Part shown: positions 48 to 39,110 of the stretch, one piece after another | Numbering within the stretch: the first letter of the stretch is position 1 | Layout: every line of letters begins with the position of its first letter | From: an uncultured Chloroflexota bacterium | GTDB taxonomy: Bacteria; Chloroflexota; Dehalococcoidia; Lucifugimonadales; GCA-002694895 | DNA: 39,110 nucleotides | Assembly: GCA_950054395.1 (NCBI GenBank) | Contig: CATLOZ010000006.1 | Span: 1-39,110, forward strand | Reading direction: 5' to 3' | Translations under genes and position numbers: made by a program | Notes under the pieces: model-generated | Told to the model about the DNA's origin: nothing | What the model saw: only the letters and a program-made list of their open reading frames with translations | Databases searched by the model: none

Positions 48-1271
48 TTAATTTTTTTCATCTTTATTAAATTTAATAAAGATGAAAATTGTTGTAATGA
101 ATATAATTGATAATATTATACCCAAATTTAAGAGTCCTATGATTTGAAATACTTTTTTATATGAAAATATATTAATAAGAATTCCAATAACAATTGGACC
201 AAAAACTTTCCCAAAATTTCTCAAAGAACCAATTATTCCCATAACTGTTCCAATATTATTTACATTTGTATGTAATGATACAAGGGCTATAGCGGATGGG
301 AGTACAGTAGCCTCAGAAATTCCAATAAAAATTGCAGGTATAAATAATGTAGAAGTGTTTAGTGAATATGATACAAAAAACATAGCTATACTAAGCAAAA
401 TAAGGCCAAAAATTATATTAGGATAATATCCTAATTTATCCCCGGAAATACCTCCTAACGGTCTTAGCAAGATATGAATAATTTCAGAAGTTGTTAAAAA
501 AGATCCTGCTATTAGAGTATTGTGCCCTGAGGTAACTAAATATAAAGGTATAAAGACTTTCATTGAATAAAATACTGCGTAAAAAGACCATTCTATTAGT
601 CCTACAATCCATATTTGACGTAATTTTGTTAATTGTATAATTTTGTTAATAAATATAGTAATTTCTTTTTTTAAATTTGTATTTTTATTATTATTCGGTA
701 AATTATAAGAACGATCTGTTAAGATTGGAATAAATGCTAAAAAGCTAATTAATCCCGTTATTATAAATAATGTTTTTGGTTGAAAATAAAAAAGTATTAC
801 ACCTCCTGTTATTGGACCTAACAAATAACCAATAGTTCTCGCAGTTCCAAACCATCCAATATAAGAAGCTCTATTATTCACGTATATACTAGTAATTACT
901 GCTAAAGTAATTGGCCCATATATAGCTGTAGATAGTCCATGAAATAATCTTATAATTATTAATTGATAAGGTTCATAAATAATAAGGTATAAAATTGGTG
1001 TTACTGAAAATATAATATTAGCAATTATTAGTAATTGCCTTTTACTGAATTTATCTCCTAGGCCTCCAATAATTGGTTTTAAAAATATTCCTGTTATTGT
1101 TGAAATTGAACTTATAGTTCCTATTAAAGCAGCATTTGCTCCTAATCCTTTTGCAAAAAATGGTAATGCAAACTTTCCAGTCATATAAGCTGATCTATTT
1201 ATTAGTTCAGCTGACCATAAATTTATTAATGTTTTATTATCAGCTTTTAAGTTTTTTTTGAAATTGTACAT
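48..1271 (-). CDS. MFS family transporter
   Basis: 407-aa ORF with about 12 hydrophobic segments; MFS-type motif 'GGLGDKFSKRQLLI' after TM2 and a related 'GGISGDKLG' in the second half. Confidence 0.85.
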   Translation of the reverse strand: MYNFKKNLKADNKTLINLWSAELINRSAYMTGKFALPFFAKGLGANAALIGTISSISTITGIFLKPIIGGLGDKFSKRQLLIIANIIFSVTPILYLIIYEPYQLIIIRLFHGLSTAIYGPITLAVITSIYVNNRASYIGWFGTARTIGYLLGPITGGVILFYFQPKTLFIITGLISFLAFIPILTDRSYNLPNNNKNTNLKKEITIFINKIIQLTKLRQIWIVGLIEWSFYAVFYSMKVFIPLYLVTSGHNTLIAGSFLTTSEIIHILLRPLGGISGDKLGYYPNIIFGLILLSIAMFFVSYSLNTSTLFIPAIFIGISEATVLPSAIALVSLHTNVNNIGTVMGIIGSLRNFGKVFGPIVIGILINIFSYKKVFQIIGLLNLGIILSIIFITTIFIFIKFNKDEKN

Positions 1272-1357
1272 AACTTTTGCTATGAAGTTTATGATATAGG
1301 AAAATGTAATTTTTCATTATTAATACTTTAATTAGCTGTTTATTCGTATTTACAGAC

Positions 1358-1386
1358 TTGACACATTCTACTCTATAAGAGAAAAT
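1358..1386 (+). promoter_or_regulatory. Candidate sigma-70 promoter upstream of SBP gene
   Basis: TTGACA at 1358-1363, 17-nt spacer, GAAAAT at 1381-1386 (4/6 match to TATAAT). Confidence 0.35.
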
Positions 1387-1466
1387 GAATCACCTTCTTT
1401 ATTTATGAAAGGGGGATTTATTAAGGTAATTTTTTAGATAACTTAGTAAAAATGGAGGTGACTAAA

Positions 1467-3266
1467 TTGTATATAATTAAATGGTTACCAGTTTTAGCTG
1501 TCTTTTCGATAATGATGGTTGTTGCTTGTTCTTCGGAAGAAGCTGCAGCACCAGCACCAGCACCAGCTGCTGTTGCTGCTCCAGCTCCAGCTCCCGCAGC
1601 GGCCCCAGCATCGAAAGCACCAGTACAAGCAAGTTCAAGCGGACAAGCTTCAGCACCAGCTGCTGATCCTTCGAAAGCTGTTGCAGGTGGTGGTGGTGAA
1701 AGCGAGCCAAAATTTGGTGGTAAATTACGATATGTAGTTCAGGGCAGTATAAAGTATGTAGATACTATGGCTACCGGTGCTATTGTTACAGGTACTGTTG
1801 GCAGGCATGCTTACGATCAGTTGTTCTGGAGAGATAAAGATTATAATATCTATGGCCAGATGGTAAGTGATTGGAACATGACTCCCGATGGTCTGACTTA
1901 TACTATGACACTTCGTGATGGTCAAACATTCCATAATGGGGATGCTTTGACAGCAGAAGATGTTATGGAGTCTCACAGTCGTTTTGCAAGAGTTGATCCT
2001 TTGGGTCGACAATTGTTAGCGATTTCACCTGGTAATGAAGGTAAAGCTTCTAAGGATTCAAGTTTAAGTCAAACTGCTAGTGGTAATACTATTACTATGA
2101 AGTTTTCTAAACCTACTAGTATGGTTTTAGAATTCTTAGCTCAGCTTGATCCTAGACAGCCTTCTATTATGCATAAGGATATTTGGTCCATAAAAGTTGG
2201 CGCACCTGTAAAAGACGTTATAGGTACAGGAGCTTATAAAATGGATCTATGGATTCAAGGTGAAAAATTAGAATTTTCCAAATTTGATGGATACGTGCCT
2301 AATAAAGGTGAAGAATGGGATTTCACTAAAGGTGAAATTACTCAGTATTTAGATGGTTTCGTAGCATTAGATATTCCGGATCATTCAACAAGAATTGCTG
2401 CTTTACAGACAAATGAAGTAGATGTTCTTGATGACTTTTCTATTGACTTGGCTTCAAACTTAGATGGAGTTGATGGTGTGATATGGGGATCAATTAGAGA
2501 TGGTAACATGGGAGTATTTGCGTTCAATATGAACCATGGTCCATTTGATATGTCCCCAGCTGGTAGGTTAGCTAGAAGAGCTATTGCTGCTGCTGCACCA
2601 AATGCTAAAGTTATGATGGCTGCTGTCGGTGGAGATGATAAATGGACAGAATGTTACATGGCTATTCACTGTGGAACTCCCTGGAGATCTTCTATTACAG
2701 ATATAATACAAAAAGAAGGTCTTAAAACTAAGGGTGGAAACATGAAATTAGGAAAAGAAATATTGGCTAAAGCAGAAGTATTACAGCCTGGTATTTCTGA
2801 AATGGAACTTAGAATAATAGCTGCTAACGATATGCCATTTATGCCTGAGGCAGGATTGGTTATGTGGGAAGCTTTGAGAAACTTAGGTTTCGTGAATACT
2901 GAATTAGTATCATTGGACTGGGGTAGCAGGGTTGCTATAACTGGTGGTGAAGGACCTTGGGAAGCAGCGACTTCCTGGTCAAACTTTGCTAACGGTCTTA
3001 ACCCATTAGCTCCTCATATGTTCGCTGGAAAATCATCTAGTGGATATTTGGATCCAAGAATTGATGCGGTTAGAGATCAATTCTTAGTCGAAACAGATCC
3101 TAAGAAAGCACAGGCTCAGTTTGATGAGATGAATAGATTATTTTATGATAATCCTCCATCTCTTAACTTCTTTCAATTCCAGCCACCACGAGCTATTAGG
3201 GACAACGTTAAAGGCTATTGCTTAAATTGTTTGTTCCCAATACTTCATAATGTTTGGTTGGACTAA
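1467..3266 (+). CDS. Peptide/oligopeptide (SBP family 5) ABC transporter substrate-binding lipoprotein
   Basis: ORF track starts at 1452, but GGAGGTGA (1454-1461) is an ideal Shine-Dalgarno 5 nt before TTG 1467; signal peptide MYIIKWLPVLAVFSIMMVVAC with lipobox; Ala/Pro linker; SBP_bac_5-like body ('GMTPDGLTYTMTLRDGQTFHNGDALTAEDV'-type segment). Confidence 0.9.
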   Translation: MYIIKWLPVLAVFSIMMVVACSSEEAAAPAPAPAAVAAPAPAPAAAPASKAPVQASSSGQASAPAADPSKAVAGGGGESEPKFGGKLRYVVQGSIKYVDTMATGAIVTGTVGRHAYDQLFWRDKDYNIYGQMVSDWNMTPDGLTYTMTLRDGQTFHNGDALTAEDVMESHSRFARVDPLGRQLLAISPGNEGKASKDSSLSQTASGNTITMKFSKPTSMVLEFLAQLDPRQPSIMHKDIWSIKVGAPVKDVIGTGAYKMDLWIQGEKLEFSKFDGYVPNKGEEWDFTKGEITQYLDGFVALDIPDHSTRIAALQTNEVDVLDDFSIDLASNLDGVDGVIWGSIRDGNMGVFAFNMNHGPFDMSPAGRLARRAIAAAAPNAKVMMAAVGGDDKWTECYMAIHCGTPWRSSITDIIQKEGLKTKGGNMKLGKEILAKAEVLQPGISEMELRIIAANDMPFMPEAGLVMWEALRNLGFVNTELVSLDWGSRVAITGGEGPWEAATSWSNFANGLNPLAPHMFAGKSSSGYLDPRIDAVRDQFLVETDPKKAQAQFDEMNRLFYDNPPSLNFFQFQPPRAIRDNVKGYCLNCLFPILHNVWLD

Positions 3267-3304
3267 TTAGAAAAGATACTTATCTTATGTAATTAGGTTT
3301 ATAC

Positions 3305-3338
3305 AAAGAGGAACCAGGCCTTGGCTTGGTTCCTCTTT
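3305..3338 (+). terminator. Strong GC-containing hairpin between SBP and permease genes (attenuator/mRNA stabiliser candidate)
   Basis: AAAGAGGAACCA GGCCTTGGCT TGGTTCCTCTTT: 12-bp perfect inverted repeat extendable through a G/T pair and GCC/GGC; no long U tract after it. Confidence 0.7.
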
Positions 3339-3433
3339 GAAGCTACACTTACATTGATTTAATTATTCATAATTAAATCATGTTAGTTTTATTTATCAAT
3401 TTCCATCTTTAAATACAACAGAGGTATAAAAAT

Positions 3434-4393
3434 ATGGGTAAATATATAGCAAGAAGAACTCTGTTGGTCATCCCTGTTTTATTTATTGTTTCAATTATCA
3501 CGTTTTCTATTATGCAACTTGCTCCCGGTGATCCTGCTGCCATTGTATTAGGTGGGGATTATATTATGTATGCAACTGCTGAAGAGATAGAAGAAATAAG
3601 AGAAAATATGGGAATTAATAGACCACCTATAGAACAATATTTGAGTTGGCTAGGTGGTTTTTTTGTAGGAGAACTAGGCAAATCTTTATTTACAACTGAA
3701 TCAGTTTCATTACTTGTAAGTCAAAAAATTGAAGCAACTATTTCCACAGTTCTTTCAGGTATTACTATAGCTGTAGTTTTAGGCGTACCAATGGGAATAC
3801 TTGCAGGATGGAAAATGAATACATGGATTGATAGATCCGTTATGGTTTTTGCTGTACTTGGATTCGCCATTCCAGGGTTTTGGCTTGCATTTAATTTAAT
3901 TTTTGTATTTTCATTAAAATTAGGATGGTTTCCTGTTTTTGGATTTCGAAGCTTGATGACAGATGGGCCTATAGAATTTTTAAGATATATTACTCTCCCA
4001 GGTATAACTCTAGGAGTTGCTTTTATGGCTTTAATCGCTAGAATGACTAGATCTAGTTTAGTTGAAGTATTAAGTGAAGATTATATTAGGACCGCAAGAG
4101 CCAAAGGATTGAGTGAAAGAATAGTTCTTATAAGACATGCTTTAAGAGCTGCCTCAATGCCTGTGGTTACAGTTATAGGATTGGTTTTTGCTGCTGCTGT
4201 TACTGGGACAGTTATTACAGAGACAGTTTTTGCTATACCAGGGATGGGTAGAATGTTTGTTAAAGCAGTAGGAGATAGAGATTTCCCTGTTATTCAGGGG
4301 CTTATGATGATATTTGCTACATCTTACGTTTTTGTTAATTTATTAGTTGATATTTTGTATGCATATTTAGATCCTAGGGTGAGGTATTCATGA
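3434..4393 (+). CDS. ABC transporter permease, DppB/OppB family
   Basis: 319 aa; 'IARRTLLVIPVLFIVSIITFSIMQLAPGDPA' N-terminus and 'EDYIRTARAKGLSERIVLIRHALRAA' EAA-type loop. Confidence 0.93.
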   Translation: MGKYIARRTLLVIPVLFIVSIITFSIMQLAPGDPAAIVLGGDYIMYATAEEIEEIRENMGINRPPIEQYLSWLGGFFVGELGKSLFTTESVSLLVSQKIEATISTVLSGITIAVVLGVPMGILAGWKMNTWIDRSVMVFAVLGFAIPGFWLAFNLIFVFSLKLGWFPVFGFRSLMTDGPIEFLRYITLPGITLGVAFMALIARMTRSSLVEVLSEDYIRTARAKGLSERIVLIRHALRAASMPVVTVIGLVFAAAVTGTVITETVFAIPGMGRMFVKAVGDRDFPVIQGLMMIFATSYVFVNLLVDILYAYLDPRVRYS

Positions 4394-28983: not shown

Positions 28984-29050
28984 AACTTGCCTTTAATATA
29001 ATTTAATTTTATTATAAAATCTCTTAGAAAAATTGTATGTAGAGGAATGC

Positions 29051-29938
29051 GTGAAAACAAAATTAATAGATGGGAAATTGATTTCATCGGATATCAGATT
29101 AGAAATCACCGAAGATGTTTCCAAATTAAAAAATGAATATAATATAGTGCCTAAATTATGTGTAATTTTAATAGGTGATGACCCTGCATCTCATGTTTAC
29201 GTCAGAAATAAACAAAAATCAGCTATTTCTGCTGGTATGTATGCAGAAGATTATAAGTTTAGTGAAAATGATAATACAGAAAATGTTATTAAATTAATTA
29301 ATAAATTTAATAATGATAAAACTGTAAATGGTATATTGGTTCAGCTACCTTTGCCTGAAAATTTTGATAAAGATGAGATAATAAATTCAATTGATCCTTT
29401 AAAAGATGTTGATGGCTTACATCCTCATAATGTAGGACTTTTAAGCTTAGGACAACCAAGATTTATTCCAGCCACTCCATTTGGAATATCTGAATTGTTA
29501 AATAGAAATAATATTAAAGTAGAAGGATCAAACATGGTAATTATTGGTAGAAGTAATATTGTGGGAATACCATTAGCAAATTTATTTGTTCAGAAGAATA
29601 AAAATTTTAACGCAACTGTAACTGTTTGTCATTCTAGATCTAAGAATATCTCTGAATATACATTAAATGCTGACATAATTATTGCTGCGATAGGCCAAGC
29701 TAATTATTTGCATTCTGATATGGTTAAATCAGGTTCAGTGATTATTGATGTTGGAATTAATAGAATTTCAGATGATACTAAAAAATCTGGTTTTAGATTG
29801 GTAGGAGATGTTGATTTTGAATCTATGATAGGTAAAGTAGATGCAATAACACCTGTTCCCGGAGGTGTAGGTCCTATGACAATAGCTATGTTATTAAAAA
29901 ACACATTTAATGCTGCATTGTTACAAATGAATCATTAA
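29051..29938 (+). CDS. folD: Methylenetetrahydrofolate dehydrogenase/cyclohydrolase
   Basis: 'VILIGDDPASHVYVRNKQKSA', 'GILVQLPLPENFD', 'ATPFGISELL', 'ITPVPGGVGPMTIAMLLKNT'; GTG 29051 preceded by AGAGG favoured over TTG 29033. Confidence 0.95.
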   Translation: MKTKLIDGKLISSDIRLEITEDVSKLKNEYNIVPKLCVILIGDDPASHVYVRNKQKSAISAGMYAEDYKFSENDNTENVIKLINKFNNDKTVNGILVQLPLPENFDKDEIINSIDPLKDVDGLHPHNVGLLSLGQPRFIPATPFGISELLNRNNIKVEGSNMVIIGRSNIVGIPLANLFVQKNKNFNATVTVCHSRSKNISEYTLNADIIIAAIGQANYLHSDMVKSGSVIIDVGINRISDDTKKSGFRLVGDVDFESMIGKVDAITPVPGGVGPMTIAMLLKNTFNAALLQMNH

Positions 29939-29952
29939 ATAATTACCTTTTA

Positions 29953-31125
29953 GCTTGCATTAGGTTTTATACCACATTACTATTTCTACACGGAGGTATA
30001 TCATGAGTAGTTTAGATGAATTATATGAAAAATTAGGTGTAAGAAAAGGAATAAGTGCTGCAGGTACAGCAACAATATATGGTGGTTCAAAATTACGCCC
30101 TGAAGTTACACAAATAATGATTGAAGCATCAACTGTGATGCTTGATATGGATGAATTAAATATTGCAGCCGGAAAAATGTTGGGAGAATTAACTGGTTCA
30201 GAATATGGTTTGGTTACTAGTGGTTCTGCAGGAGGGTTATTATTACAGGCTTGTGCTGTAATTGCGGGTGATGATCCGGCTAAAATGGCAAGACTCCCTG
30301 ATACTGAGGGAATGAAAAATGAAATTATTATTCAGAGATCTCATAGATTCGCTTATGATCAATGTTATAGAGCTGCGGGTGCAAAATTTGTAGAAATAGG
30401 TGATGGAAAAAGATGTCATGAATGGCAATTAGAGGCTGCTTTTTCTGATAAAACAGCTGCAGTTGCATATTTATTCTCACCTGGCCTTTCTAAGATGGCG
30501 TTATCATTAGATAAAGTATGTGAAATAGCACATTCAAAAGGTGTGCCTGTAATAGTTGACGCAGCCTCAATGTTACCTCCCAGAGAAAATTTATCAAAAT
30601 ATCATAAATCAGGAGCAGATTTAGTTATCCATAGTGGAGGAAAAGGGATTAGAGGGCCGCAGGGAACAGGTATTTTATCAGGTAAGAAGGAATTAATTAA
30701 AGCTGCATATGCAAATGCTGCCCCTCATCAATTTCTTGGAAGATCAGCTAAAGTTGCAAAAGAAGAGATAGTGGGGCTTCTTACAGCTTTAAATAATTTT
30801 GTTAATGAAGATGAACAGGTTGAAAACTTTGATTTTAGAAATAAAAGTCAGAAAGTAGTAGATGCTTTTAGTGAAACTCCAGGATTGGATGCTGCAGTGA
30901 AGCATGACAATGTAGATTATTTAACACCAGTATCGTCTTTATATTTCACTGATGAATGGGAGGGGCCTAAAGCTGGTGAAATTCTTCAGCGGCTTCAGGA
31001 AGGTAATACACCAATATTTATGCATAACCTTATACATCCTGATGAATTAATATTTGATCCTTTAAATGTTGATGATGATGAAGTAGATGTAGTGATTAAA
31101 AAAATACGCGAATCAATGGATTAAA
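29953..31125 (+). repeat. Copy 1 of exact direct tandem repeat (1,173 nt; offset 1,187 nt)
   Basis: Leader GCTTGCATTAGGTTTTATACCACATTACTATTTCTACACGGAGGTATATC plus whole CDS repeated at 31140-32312. Confidence 0.93.
30003..31124 (+). CDS. SelA-fold / aminotransferase class V-like PLP-dependent enzyme, copy 1
   Basis: 373 aa; PLP-Lys region 'GADLVIHSGGKGIRGPQGTGILSGKKEL', 'PVIVDAASMLPP', 'LVTSGSAGGLLLQACAVIAGDD'; strong SD GGAGGT. Confidence 0.85.
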   Translation: MSSLDELYEKLGVRKGISAAGTATIYGGSKLRPEVTQIMIEASTVMLDMDELNIAAGKMLGELTGSEYGLVTSGSAGGLLLQACAVIAGDDPAKMARLPDTEGMKNEIIIQRSHRFAYDQCYRAAGAKFVEIGDGKRCHEWQLEAAFSDKTAAVAYLFSPGLSKMALSLDKVCEIAHSKGVPVIVDAASMLPPRENLSKYHKSGADLVIHSGGKGIRGPQGTGILSGKKELIKAAYANAAPHQFLGRSAKVAKEEIVGLLTALNNFVNEDEQVENFDFRNKSQKVVDAFSETPGLDAAVKHDNVDYLTPVSSLYFTDEWEGPKAGEILQRLQEGNTPIFMHNLIHPDELIFDPLNVDDDEVDVVIKKIRESMD

Positions 31126-31139
31126 TAATTATCTTTTTT

Positions 31140-32312
31140 GCTTGCATTAGGTTTTATACCACATTACTATTTCTACACGGAGGTATATCATGAGTAGTTT
31201 AGATGAATTATATGAAAAATTAGGTGTAAGAAAAGGAATAAGTGCTGCAGGTACAGCAACAATATATGGTGGTTCAAAATTACGCCCTGAAGTTACACAA
31301 ATAATGATTGAAGCATCAACTGTGATGCTTGATATGGATGAATTAAATATTGCAGCCGGAAAAATGTTGGGAGAATTAACTGGTTCAGAATATGGTTTGG
31401 TTACTAGTGGTTCTGCAGGAGGGTTATTATTACAGGCTTGTGCTGTAATTGCGGGTGATGATCCGGCTAAAATGGCAAGACTCCCTGATACTGAGGGAAT
31501 GAAAAATGAAATTATTATTCAGAGATCTCATAGATTCGCTTATGATCAATGTTATAGAGCTGCGGGTGCAAAATTTGTAGAAATAGGTGATGGAAAAAGA
31601 TGTCATGAATGGCAATTAGAGGCTGCTTTTTCTGATAAAACAGCTGCAGTTGCATATTTATTCTCACCTGGCCTTTCTAAGATGGCGTTATCATTAGATA
31701 AAGTATGTGAAATAGCACATTCAAAAGGTGTGCCTGTAATAGTTGACGCAGCCTCAATGTTACCTCCCAGAGAAAATTTATCAAAATATCATAAATCAGG
31801 AGCAGATTTAGTTATCCATAGTGGAGGAAAAGGGATTAGAGGGCCGCAGGGAACAGGTATTTTATCAGGTAAGAAGGAATTAATTAAAGCTGCATATGCA
31901 AATGCTGCCCCTCATCAATTTCTTGGAAGATCAGCTAAAGTTGCAAAAGAAGAGATAGTGGGGCTTCTTACAGCTTTAAATAATTTTGTTAATGAAGATG
32001 AACAGGTTGAAAACTTTGATTTTAGAAATAAAAGTCAGAAAGTAGTAGATGCTTTTAGTGAAACTCCAGGATTGGATGCTGCAGTGAAGCATGACAATGT
32101 AGATTATTTAACACCAGTATCGTCTTTATATTTCACTGATGAATGGGAGGGGCCTAAAGCTGGTGAAATTCTTCAGCGGCTTCAGGAAGGTAATACACCA
32201 ATATTTATGCATAACCTTATACATCCTGATGAATTAATATTTGATCCTTTAAATGTTGATGATGATGAAGTAGATGTAGTGATTAAAAAAATACGCGAAT
32301 CAATGGATTAAA
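31140..32312 (+). repeat. Copy 2 of exact direct tandem repeat
   Basis: See copy 1; identical over the compared sequence, including the untranslated leader. Confidence 0.93.
31190..32311 (+). CDS. SelA-fold / aminotransferase class V-like PLP-dependent enzyme, copy 2
   Basis: Protein identical to 30003..31124; antisense ORFs also identical. Confidence 0.83.
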   Translation: MSSLDELYEKLGVRKGISAAGTATIYGGSKLRPEVTQIMIEASTVMLDMDELNIAAGKMLGELTGSEYGLVTSGSAGGLLLQACAVIAGDDPAKMARLPDTEGMKNEIIIQRSHRFAYDQCYRAAGAKFVEIGDGKRCHEWQLEAAFSDKTAAVAYLFSPGLSKMALSLDKVCEIAHSKGVPVIVDAASMLPPRENLSKYHKSGADLVIHSGGKGIRGPQGTGILSGKKELIKAAYANAAPHQFLGRSAKVAKEEIVGLLTALNNFVNEDEQVENFDFRNKSQKVVDAFSETPGLDAAVKHDNVDYLTPVSSLYFTDEWEGPKAGEILQRLQEGNTPIFMHNLIHPDELIFDPLNVDDDEVDVVIKKIRESMD

Positions 32313-32326
32313 ATAAGAGTTCATAC

Positions 32327-33427
32327 ATGTTAAAACAATTTCAGATTCCTGAACGGGATGTAATAAGGGTAGATTCCATTTCTTTAAGAAAAGTTGTTAA
32401 AGATATTTTTATTAATTGTGGTGTACCAGAATTAGAATCAGAAATTGGGTCTGATGTGCTAGTTTCAACTGATTTAAGAGGTGTAGATACACATGGAGTA
32501 TCAAACATGCTCCGTATTTATGTAAAAGATTATCAAGATGGTAAATTAAATCCATCTTCCAATATGAAAATAGCAAAAGAAAGTACATCTACGATTAATA
32601 TTGATGGTGATAATGGTCTGGGTATTTTACAGGGACCAACAGCTATGGAATATGCTATTAAAAAAGCAAAAGAATCAGGTGTTGGCATTGTGACATTGTA
32701 TAATAGTGGTCATATAGGTGCTGTTGGGCATCATGCAAGAATAGCAGCAGATAATAAAATGGTAGGTATATGCCTTACTGCCGGAGGGACTCTTGTTTTA
32801 CCTACTTTTGCATCAGAGTCTAGAACGGGAACAAATCCAATTTCTTTGGCTGCTCCTTCAAATAAATATCCCTTTTTTTTATTTGATGCTGCAACTTCTT
32901 CTATAGCAGGAAATAAAGTTAGATTAGTTGCGAGAAATGGTACTAAGTTGAGTGCAGGCTCAATTGGAGATGAAAATGGAAATCCTGTAATGAAACCTAT
33001 GAGCGTTGATGTTTCTGAAGATTTTATTGATATTCCTAACTTATTACCGCTTGGAGGAAATCGCGATCAGGGGTCTCATAAAGGTTATGGATTATCTTTA
33101 TTTGTAGAAATTTTATGCACAATATTATCTGGGAATGTACCGAATATGGTGGATCCTAATGGTAATTTATGTCATTTTTTTGCTGCTTTTAATATTGAAT
33201 CATTTACTGAATATAATATTTTTATATCTAATATGGATGATATGTTAGAAACTTTATTAAATACTCCACCTACCCCTGAAGCAGATAGAGTTATTTATCC
33301 TGGTATTATGGAGTATGAAAATGAACAGGACAGAATAGAAAATGGAATCCCTTTACATAAAGAGGTAGTTGAATGGTTTTCTGGTACTAGCAAATCGATG
33401 AAAATTGATTCTGTGAAGTTACTTTAA
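32327..33427 (+). CDS. Malate/L-lactate (sulfolactate)-type dehydrogenase, Ldh_2 family
   Basis: 'STDLRGVDTHGVSNMLRIYVKDYQDGKLNP', 'NSGHIGAVGHHARIAADNKMVGICLT', 'GTNPISLAAPS', 'HKGYGLSLFVEILCTILSG'. Confidence 0.9.
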   Translation: MLKQFQIPERDVIRVDSISLRKVVKDIFINCGVPELESEIGSDVLVSTDLRGVDTHGVSNMLRIYVKDYQDGKLNPSSNMKIAKESTSTINIDGDNGLGILQGPTAMEYAIKKAKESGVGIVTLYNSGHIGAVGHHARIAADNKMVGICLTAGGTLVLPTFASESRTGTNPISLAAPSNKYPFFLFDAATSSIAGNKVRLVARNGTKLSAGSIGDENGNPVMKPMSVDVSEDFIDIPNLLPLGGNRDQGSHKGYGLSLFVEILCTILSGNVPNMVDPNGNLCHFFAAFNIESFTEYNIFISNMDDMLETLLNTPPTPEADRVIYPGIMEYENEQDRIENGIPLHKEVVEWFSGTSKSMKIDSVKLL

Positions 33428-39088: not shown

Positions 39089-39110
39089 AGATCGGAAGAG
39101 CGTCGTGTAG
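39089..39110. other. Illumina TruSeq adapter read-through (artefact)
   Basis: AGATCGGAAGAGCGTCGTGTAG is identical to the start of the reverse complement of the TruSeq universal adapter. Confidence 0.97.

Follow-up and report, generated by a model that had tools for sequence, protein, structure and literature searches.

The window, a stretch of 39,110 nt, carries two adjacent head-to-tail copies of a gene for a PLP-dependent enzyme, and the reading favoured here, at a probability of about 0.7, is a real, recent tandem duplication of this one gene together with its promoter. Directly comparing 29953-31125 with 31140-32312 gave 0 mismatches over 1,173 bp at a period of 1,187, an identity far beyond chance, and the adjacent, direct-order and near-identical arrangement is that of a recent tandem gene duplication. 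Each block consists of a 50-nt leader with a Shine-Dalgarno (SD) sequence and a 373-codon gene, and the preliminary description, which had claimed that the copies were identical throughout these parts, was correct on this point, as both ORFs encode 373 aa. The features of the locus are as follows.

29033..29938, + strand: folD (methylene-THF dehydrogenase/cyclohydrolase), from Pfam THF_DHG_CYH and _C and the ORF; its end, CATTAAATAATT, is the left breakpoint
29934..29952, + strand: spacer 1 with the folD stop, ATTAAATAATTACCTTTTA; by alignment homologous, but not identical, to 31120-31139
29953..31125, + strand: copy 1 of the exact 1,173-bp repeat, from direct comparison
29955..29983, + strand: promoter-like TTGCAT-N17-TACTAT of copy 1, from conservation in the alignment with G001 and G004
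30003..31124, + strand: PLP-dependent enzyme, copy 1, 373 aa, DgaE/SelA-like fold type I, from the ORF, Pfam and alignment
31120..31139, + strand: joint, made of the end of copy 1 (ATTAAA microhomology) and spacer 2 (TAATTATCTTTTTT), from alignment
31140..32312, + strand: second copy of the exact repeat, carrying a promoter-like site (31142-31170) and an SD of its own
31190..32311, + strand: PLP-dependent enzyme, copy 2, 373 aa, from the ORF
32327..33427, + strand: Ldh_2-family (malate/L-lactate dehydrogenase type) oxidoreductase, from Pfam Ldh_2 (1.2e-91)
39089..39110, + strand: Illumina adapter read-through at the end of the contig (C6)

The repeat and its joint

Across 984 kb (44 contigs) of the same 1.26-Mb genome, no exact repeat other than this pair exceeded 77 bp; the next longest measured 77 bp and all lay at contig ends. 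Scanning 781 kb for other tandem repeats (a 150-bp stretch with >80% identity at spacings of 100-4,000) returned none, and the whole genome held no further copy of the unit, just paralogs at 28-44% protein identity.

The exact block has the extent given in the preliminary description, but homology between the copies starts about 19 nt further to the left, at 29934, as ATTAAATAATTA is present both at 29934-29945 and at 31120-31131. From there to the start of exact identity, a C/T and an A/T substitution and an additional T (a 1-nt indel) distinguish the two spacers, and judged from the alignment the duplicated segment appears slightly longer than the exact block. Spacer 1 is marked by ACCTTTTAGC and spacer 2 by ATCTTTTTTGC, while the 30-mer ATGGATTAAATAATTATCTTTTTTGCTTGC is characteristic of the joint.

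The motif ATTAAA is common to the end of folD and the end of the PLP gene before Ldh2 (GGATTAAAATAAG), and the joint, GGATTAAATAATTA, reads as gene end, six shared bases and folD end. At a random join, a 6-bp microhomology has a ~0.3% chance given the composition of the window, and a short direct match at the breakpoint agrees with a short-homology (RecA-independent type) duplication. As the match coincides with the ends of both folD and the PLP gene, the duplicated segment runs from stop codon to stop codon and disrupts no gene or promoter. The existence of the joint is probable, since its spacer 2 departs from spacer 1 at three places whereas an assembler-only duplicate, or a library or whole-genome-amplification chimera of a single clone, would repeat spacer 1 verbatim, and since a loop in the assembly graph needs reads through the joint.

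The ancestral state and the neighbourhood

In two congeneric genomes, G001 and G004, the order is acpS-folD-PLP-Ldh2-amidase-ilvE, with a single PLP gene at the same place and both flanks present; their PLP proteins are 84 and 82% identical to the one described here. The PLP-Ldh2 order is also found in G001, G004, G002 and several further genomes of the order, and in the window the Ldh_2 gene starts 15 nt downstream of copy 2. The PLP gene of G002 is the closer match (94% identical), but G002 is uninformative as a test of the duplication because its contig begins at codon 75 and folD was not found in its assembly. The downstream flank of copy 2 matches G002, and the upstream flank of copy 1 is the ancestral folD flank. 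The host is taken to be a SAR202-type Chloroflexota, because the genome scan returned named relatives that are marine Chloroflexi/Dehalococcoidia and SAR202 assemblies.

Among the genomes scanned, none other carried the pair, and a search of viral contigs for the joint was likewise negative. A mobile element was considered and rejected, as the unit has no other copy in the genome, the repeat ends at stop codons, and there was no transposase among the window proteins scanned.

Expression signals

The promoter-like site of the leader is kept in G001 and G004, where the alignment retains TTG, the 17-base spacing, TACTAT and GGAGGTAT, and the surrounding sequence is not kept. The leader promoter was absent from the output of a generic promoter scan, and the call comes from this conservation only. 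GGAGG also lies within the repeated leader, so that each copy, as read from the alignment, has its own conserved promoter-like site and ribosome-binding site. Because each copy carries its own signals, the expected effect would be a higher ratio of PLP enzyme to the neighbouring Ldh2.

The PLP-dependent enzyme

Pfam groups the PLP protein with SelA and class-V aminotransferases, and membership of this superfamily is borne out by a SelA (PF03841) match of 35.8 bits against a gathering score of 22.8 bits and by the PLP lysine. The closest solved protein is DgaE (PDB 7LC0, E 3e-49), and as in DgaE and SelA-like PLP enzymes the alignment is full-length and the PLP lysine is in the same place: Lys214 aligns with the PLP-binding lysine of DgaE. 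Naming the enzyme DgaE was nevertheless rejected, as it scored 208 bits against a cut-off of 600 bits (NF047797) and 221.5 bits against 385.3 bits (TIGR01437), well under both curated NCBIfam cut-offs. One reasonable but purely speculative possibility is that the enzyme works as a lyase, or in a related way, on an amino acid or an amino-sugar acid and that its 2-oxo product is then a substrate of Ldh2.

Many genomes of the order contain 5-10 matches to the PLP family. SelA/DgaE-like PLP genes also stand in head-to-tail pairs, only 50-52% identical within a pair, at L071:1-2227 (G075:C30) and L059:3669-6104, with similar pairs at L058 and L060; such diverged pairs occur in another genome of the order, in a Woeseiaceae genome and in gammaproteobacterial/proteobacterial MAGs. 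The L059 pair has signal-peptide-like N-termini.

Divergence between the copies

Fourfold sites differed between the copies at 0/155 positions, compared with 21/117 between a copy and the G002 gene (codons 75-373). With the identity taken at face value, the copies have diverged at fourfold sites by no more than ~1.9% (95% upper limit), roughly one tenth of what separates a copy from G002. Under equal neutral rates, the probability of two substitutions plus an indel within 14-20 spacer nt but no change at 155 fourfold (243 synonymous) sites is ~0.0001-0.012, so recency on its own does not account for so uneven a distribution. Candidate reasons are merging by the assembler, gene conversion, or mutations made together with the joint.

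What the assembly can and cannot support

Exact 77-bp overlaps at contig ends were found in four cases in this genome, G000 (C7/C26, C11/C24, C14/C25 and the first bases of C15), and contig C45 starts in the same Illumina adapter (L075:1-43) that ends the window. Together, the overlaps and the adapter at two contigs point to a short-read de Bruijn assembly with a final k = 77, and the assembler is likely, though not proved, to be SPAdes. The preliminary description had noted the adapter at the contig end and deduced short-read data from it, and both statements hold. Its argument that exact repeats normally collapse once they exceed the insert length still leaves room for a tandem pair, because an assembly graph may contain a simple loop that is traversed an extra time, and the graph would hold this pair as such a loop (unit, spacer 2, unit).

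The copy count is the assembler's choice, because at k = 77 an exact repeat of 1,173 bp can be passed only by read pairs or a loop heuristic, and perfect identity is not secure because consensus assemblers merge small differences. The number of copies (two or more) is likewise not secure, and 'two' should be read as a minimum or a guess. In assemblies of the metaSPAdes type, bulges are reduced to a consensus, and many repeats stay unresolved when inserts are <1 kb (PMC8021871). As a separate observation, C7:32088-32391 and C9:2-305 of this genome share a near-identical inverted stretch of ~300 bp, which contains exact blocks of 74, 72 and 58 bp and on one of the two contigs lies at the contig start.

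The favoured explanation and its rivals

Starting from an ancestral arrangement of folD - promoter - PLP enzyme - Ldh2, the end of the PLP gene (GGATTAAA) would have been joined to the folD end via the 6-bp match, which would create a second promoter-plus-gene unit before Ldh2 and presumably leave exactly two copies in one chromosome. The short, non-functional spacer may then have gained its two substitutions and one indel, while the units would read identical either through recombination that keeps the copies alike or through small differences merged by the assembler, and expression of the DgaE/SelA-like enzyme would be raised relative to Ldh2. The existence elsewhere of ~50% identical tandem pairs of the same PLP family lends support to a duplication. 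Recent amplification or ongoing conversion, or else an artefact, had been proposed at the outset; this set of options stands, and the 6-bp microhomology and the three spacer differences shift the balance towards a real joint.

The strongest competing account, still tentative, is a duplication that is real but imperfect, in which the copies differ at some sites or number at least three and the graph merged them into one consensus unit that was walked twice. It fits the k = 77 de Bruijn signature and the bulge collapse of metaSPAdes-type assemblers (PMC8021871), and it explains why differences are seen only in the spacer, as spacer 2 cannot form a bulge with spacer 1 when their left flanks differ. 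However, the contig shows no leftover variant, and that the assembler was of this type is only likely. This account is compatible with the favoured duplication in everything except exact identity and copy number, so the confidences placed in the two overlap. I consider it doubtful that the duplication is older and its copies are kept identical by gene conversion, so that divergence would persist only at the left edge, where conversion works poorly. Three changes in a short spacer against 0/155 fourfold sites would agree with this, and prokaryotic duplicate genes are known to evolve in concert (PMC6053082), but the pair is known from one genome only, and the spacer is so short that all three changes could date from the formation of the joint. 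A related version, an older maintained dosage array in which recombination keeps identity, only the spacer drifts and copy number may vary among ocean cells, is the least likely of the alternatives.

A pure artefact, in which a chimeric read, an amplification chimera, a strain mixture or a circle junction made the loop and the genome is single-copy, is unlikely, though several observations would suit it: the Illumina adapter at two contig ends, the pair being the only long repeat in the assembly, the single copy in G001 and G004, and the finding in Salmonella that duplication-like joints with <11 bp microhomology were not confirmed (PMC3411829). Against it, the joint edge in a k = 77 graph requires reads across it, and the joint falls exactly between two stop codons with all genes and promoters intact. 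A wholly artefactual joint appears unlikely above all because spacer 2 is not spacer 1 verbatim, as a one-clone chimera would give.

Relation to known systems

A duplication of this sort is an ordinary kind of event, well known in bacteria (PMC3411829). The pair resembles the spontaneous tandem duplications and amplifications between short repeats described there in its direct order, short joint homology, whole gene with promoter and untouched functional flanks. Those duplications were confirmed at a homology of at least 11 bp, while the pair here has only 6 bp; it is also apparently fixed, or frequent enough to be assembled, and no selection is known. As in prokaryotic concerted evolution (PMC6053082), the copies are closer to each other than to the nearest ortholog, but here in a single genome, whereas concerted evolution would show as copies held similar across lineages that share the duplication.

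Work on paralog expansions of SAR202 enzymes (PMC6946804, PMC10444878) concerns the same broad bacterial group, in which the several matches per genome of the PLP family are a further likeness. Those papers stress the enolase and flavin monooxygenase families and, by the terms searched, do not mention the PLP family. If real, the pair is an early-stage tandem duplicate with its promoter in a compact, almost repeat-free genome, and would show the first step in enzyme-family growth in a marine group that is abundant, has largely escaped cultivation and is noted for expanded enzyme families. The case also illustrates in practice how an exact repeat in a short-read genome can be read: the joint deserves more credence than the copy number or the identity. 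Elsewhere in the window, Ala/Pro-rich repeated codons at 1538-1679, in the early part of the gene for a family-5 solute-binding protein (1452-3266), likely encode a linker.
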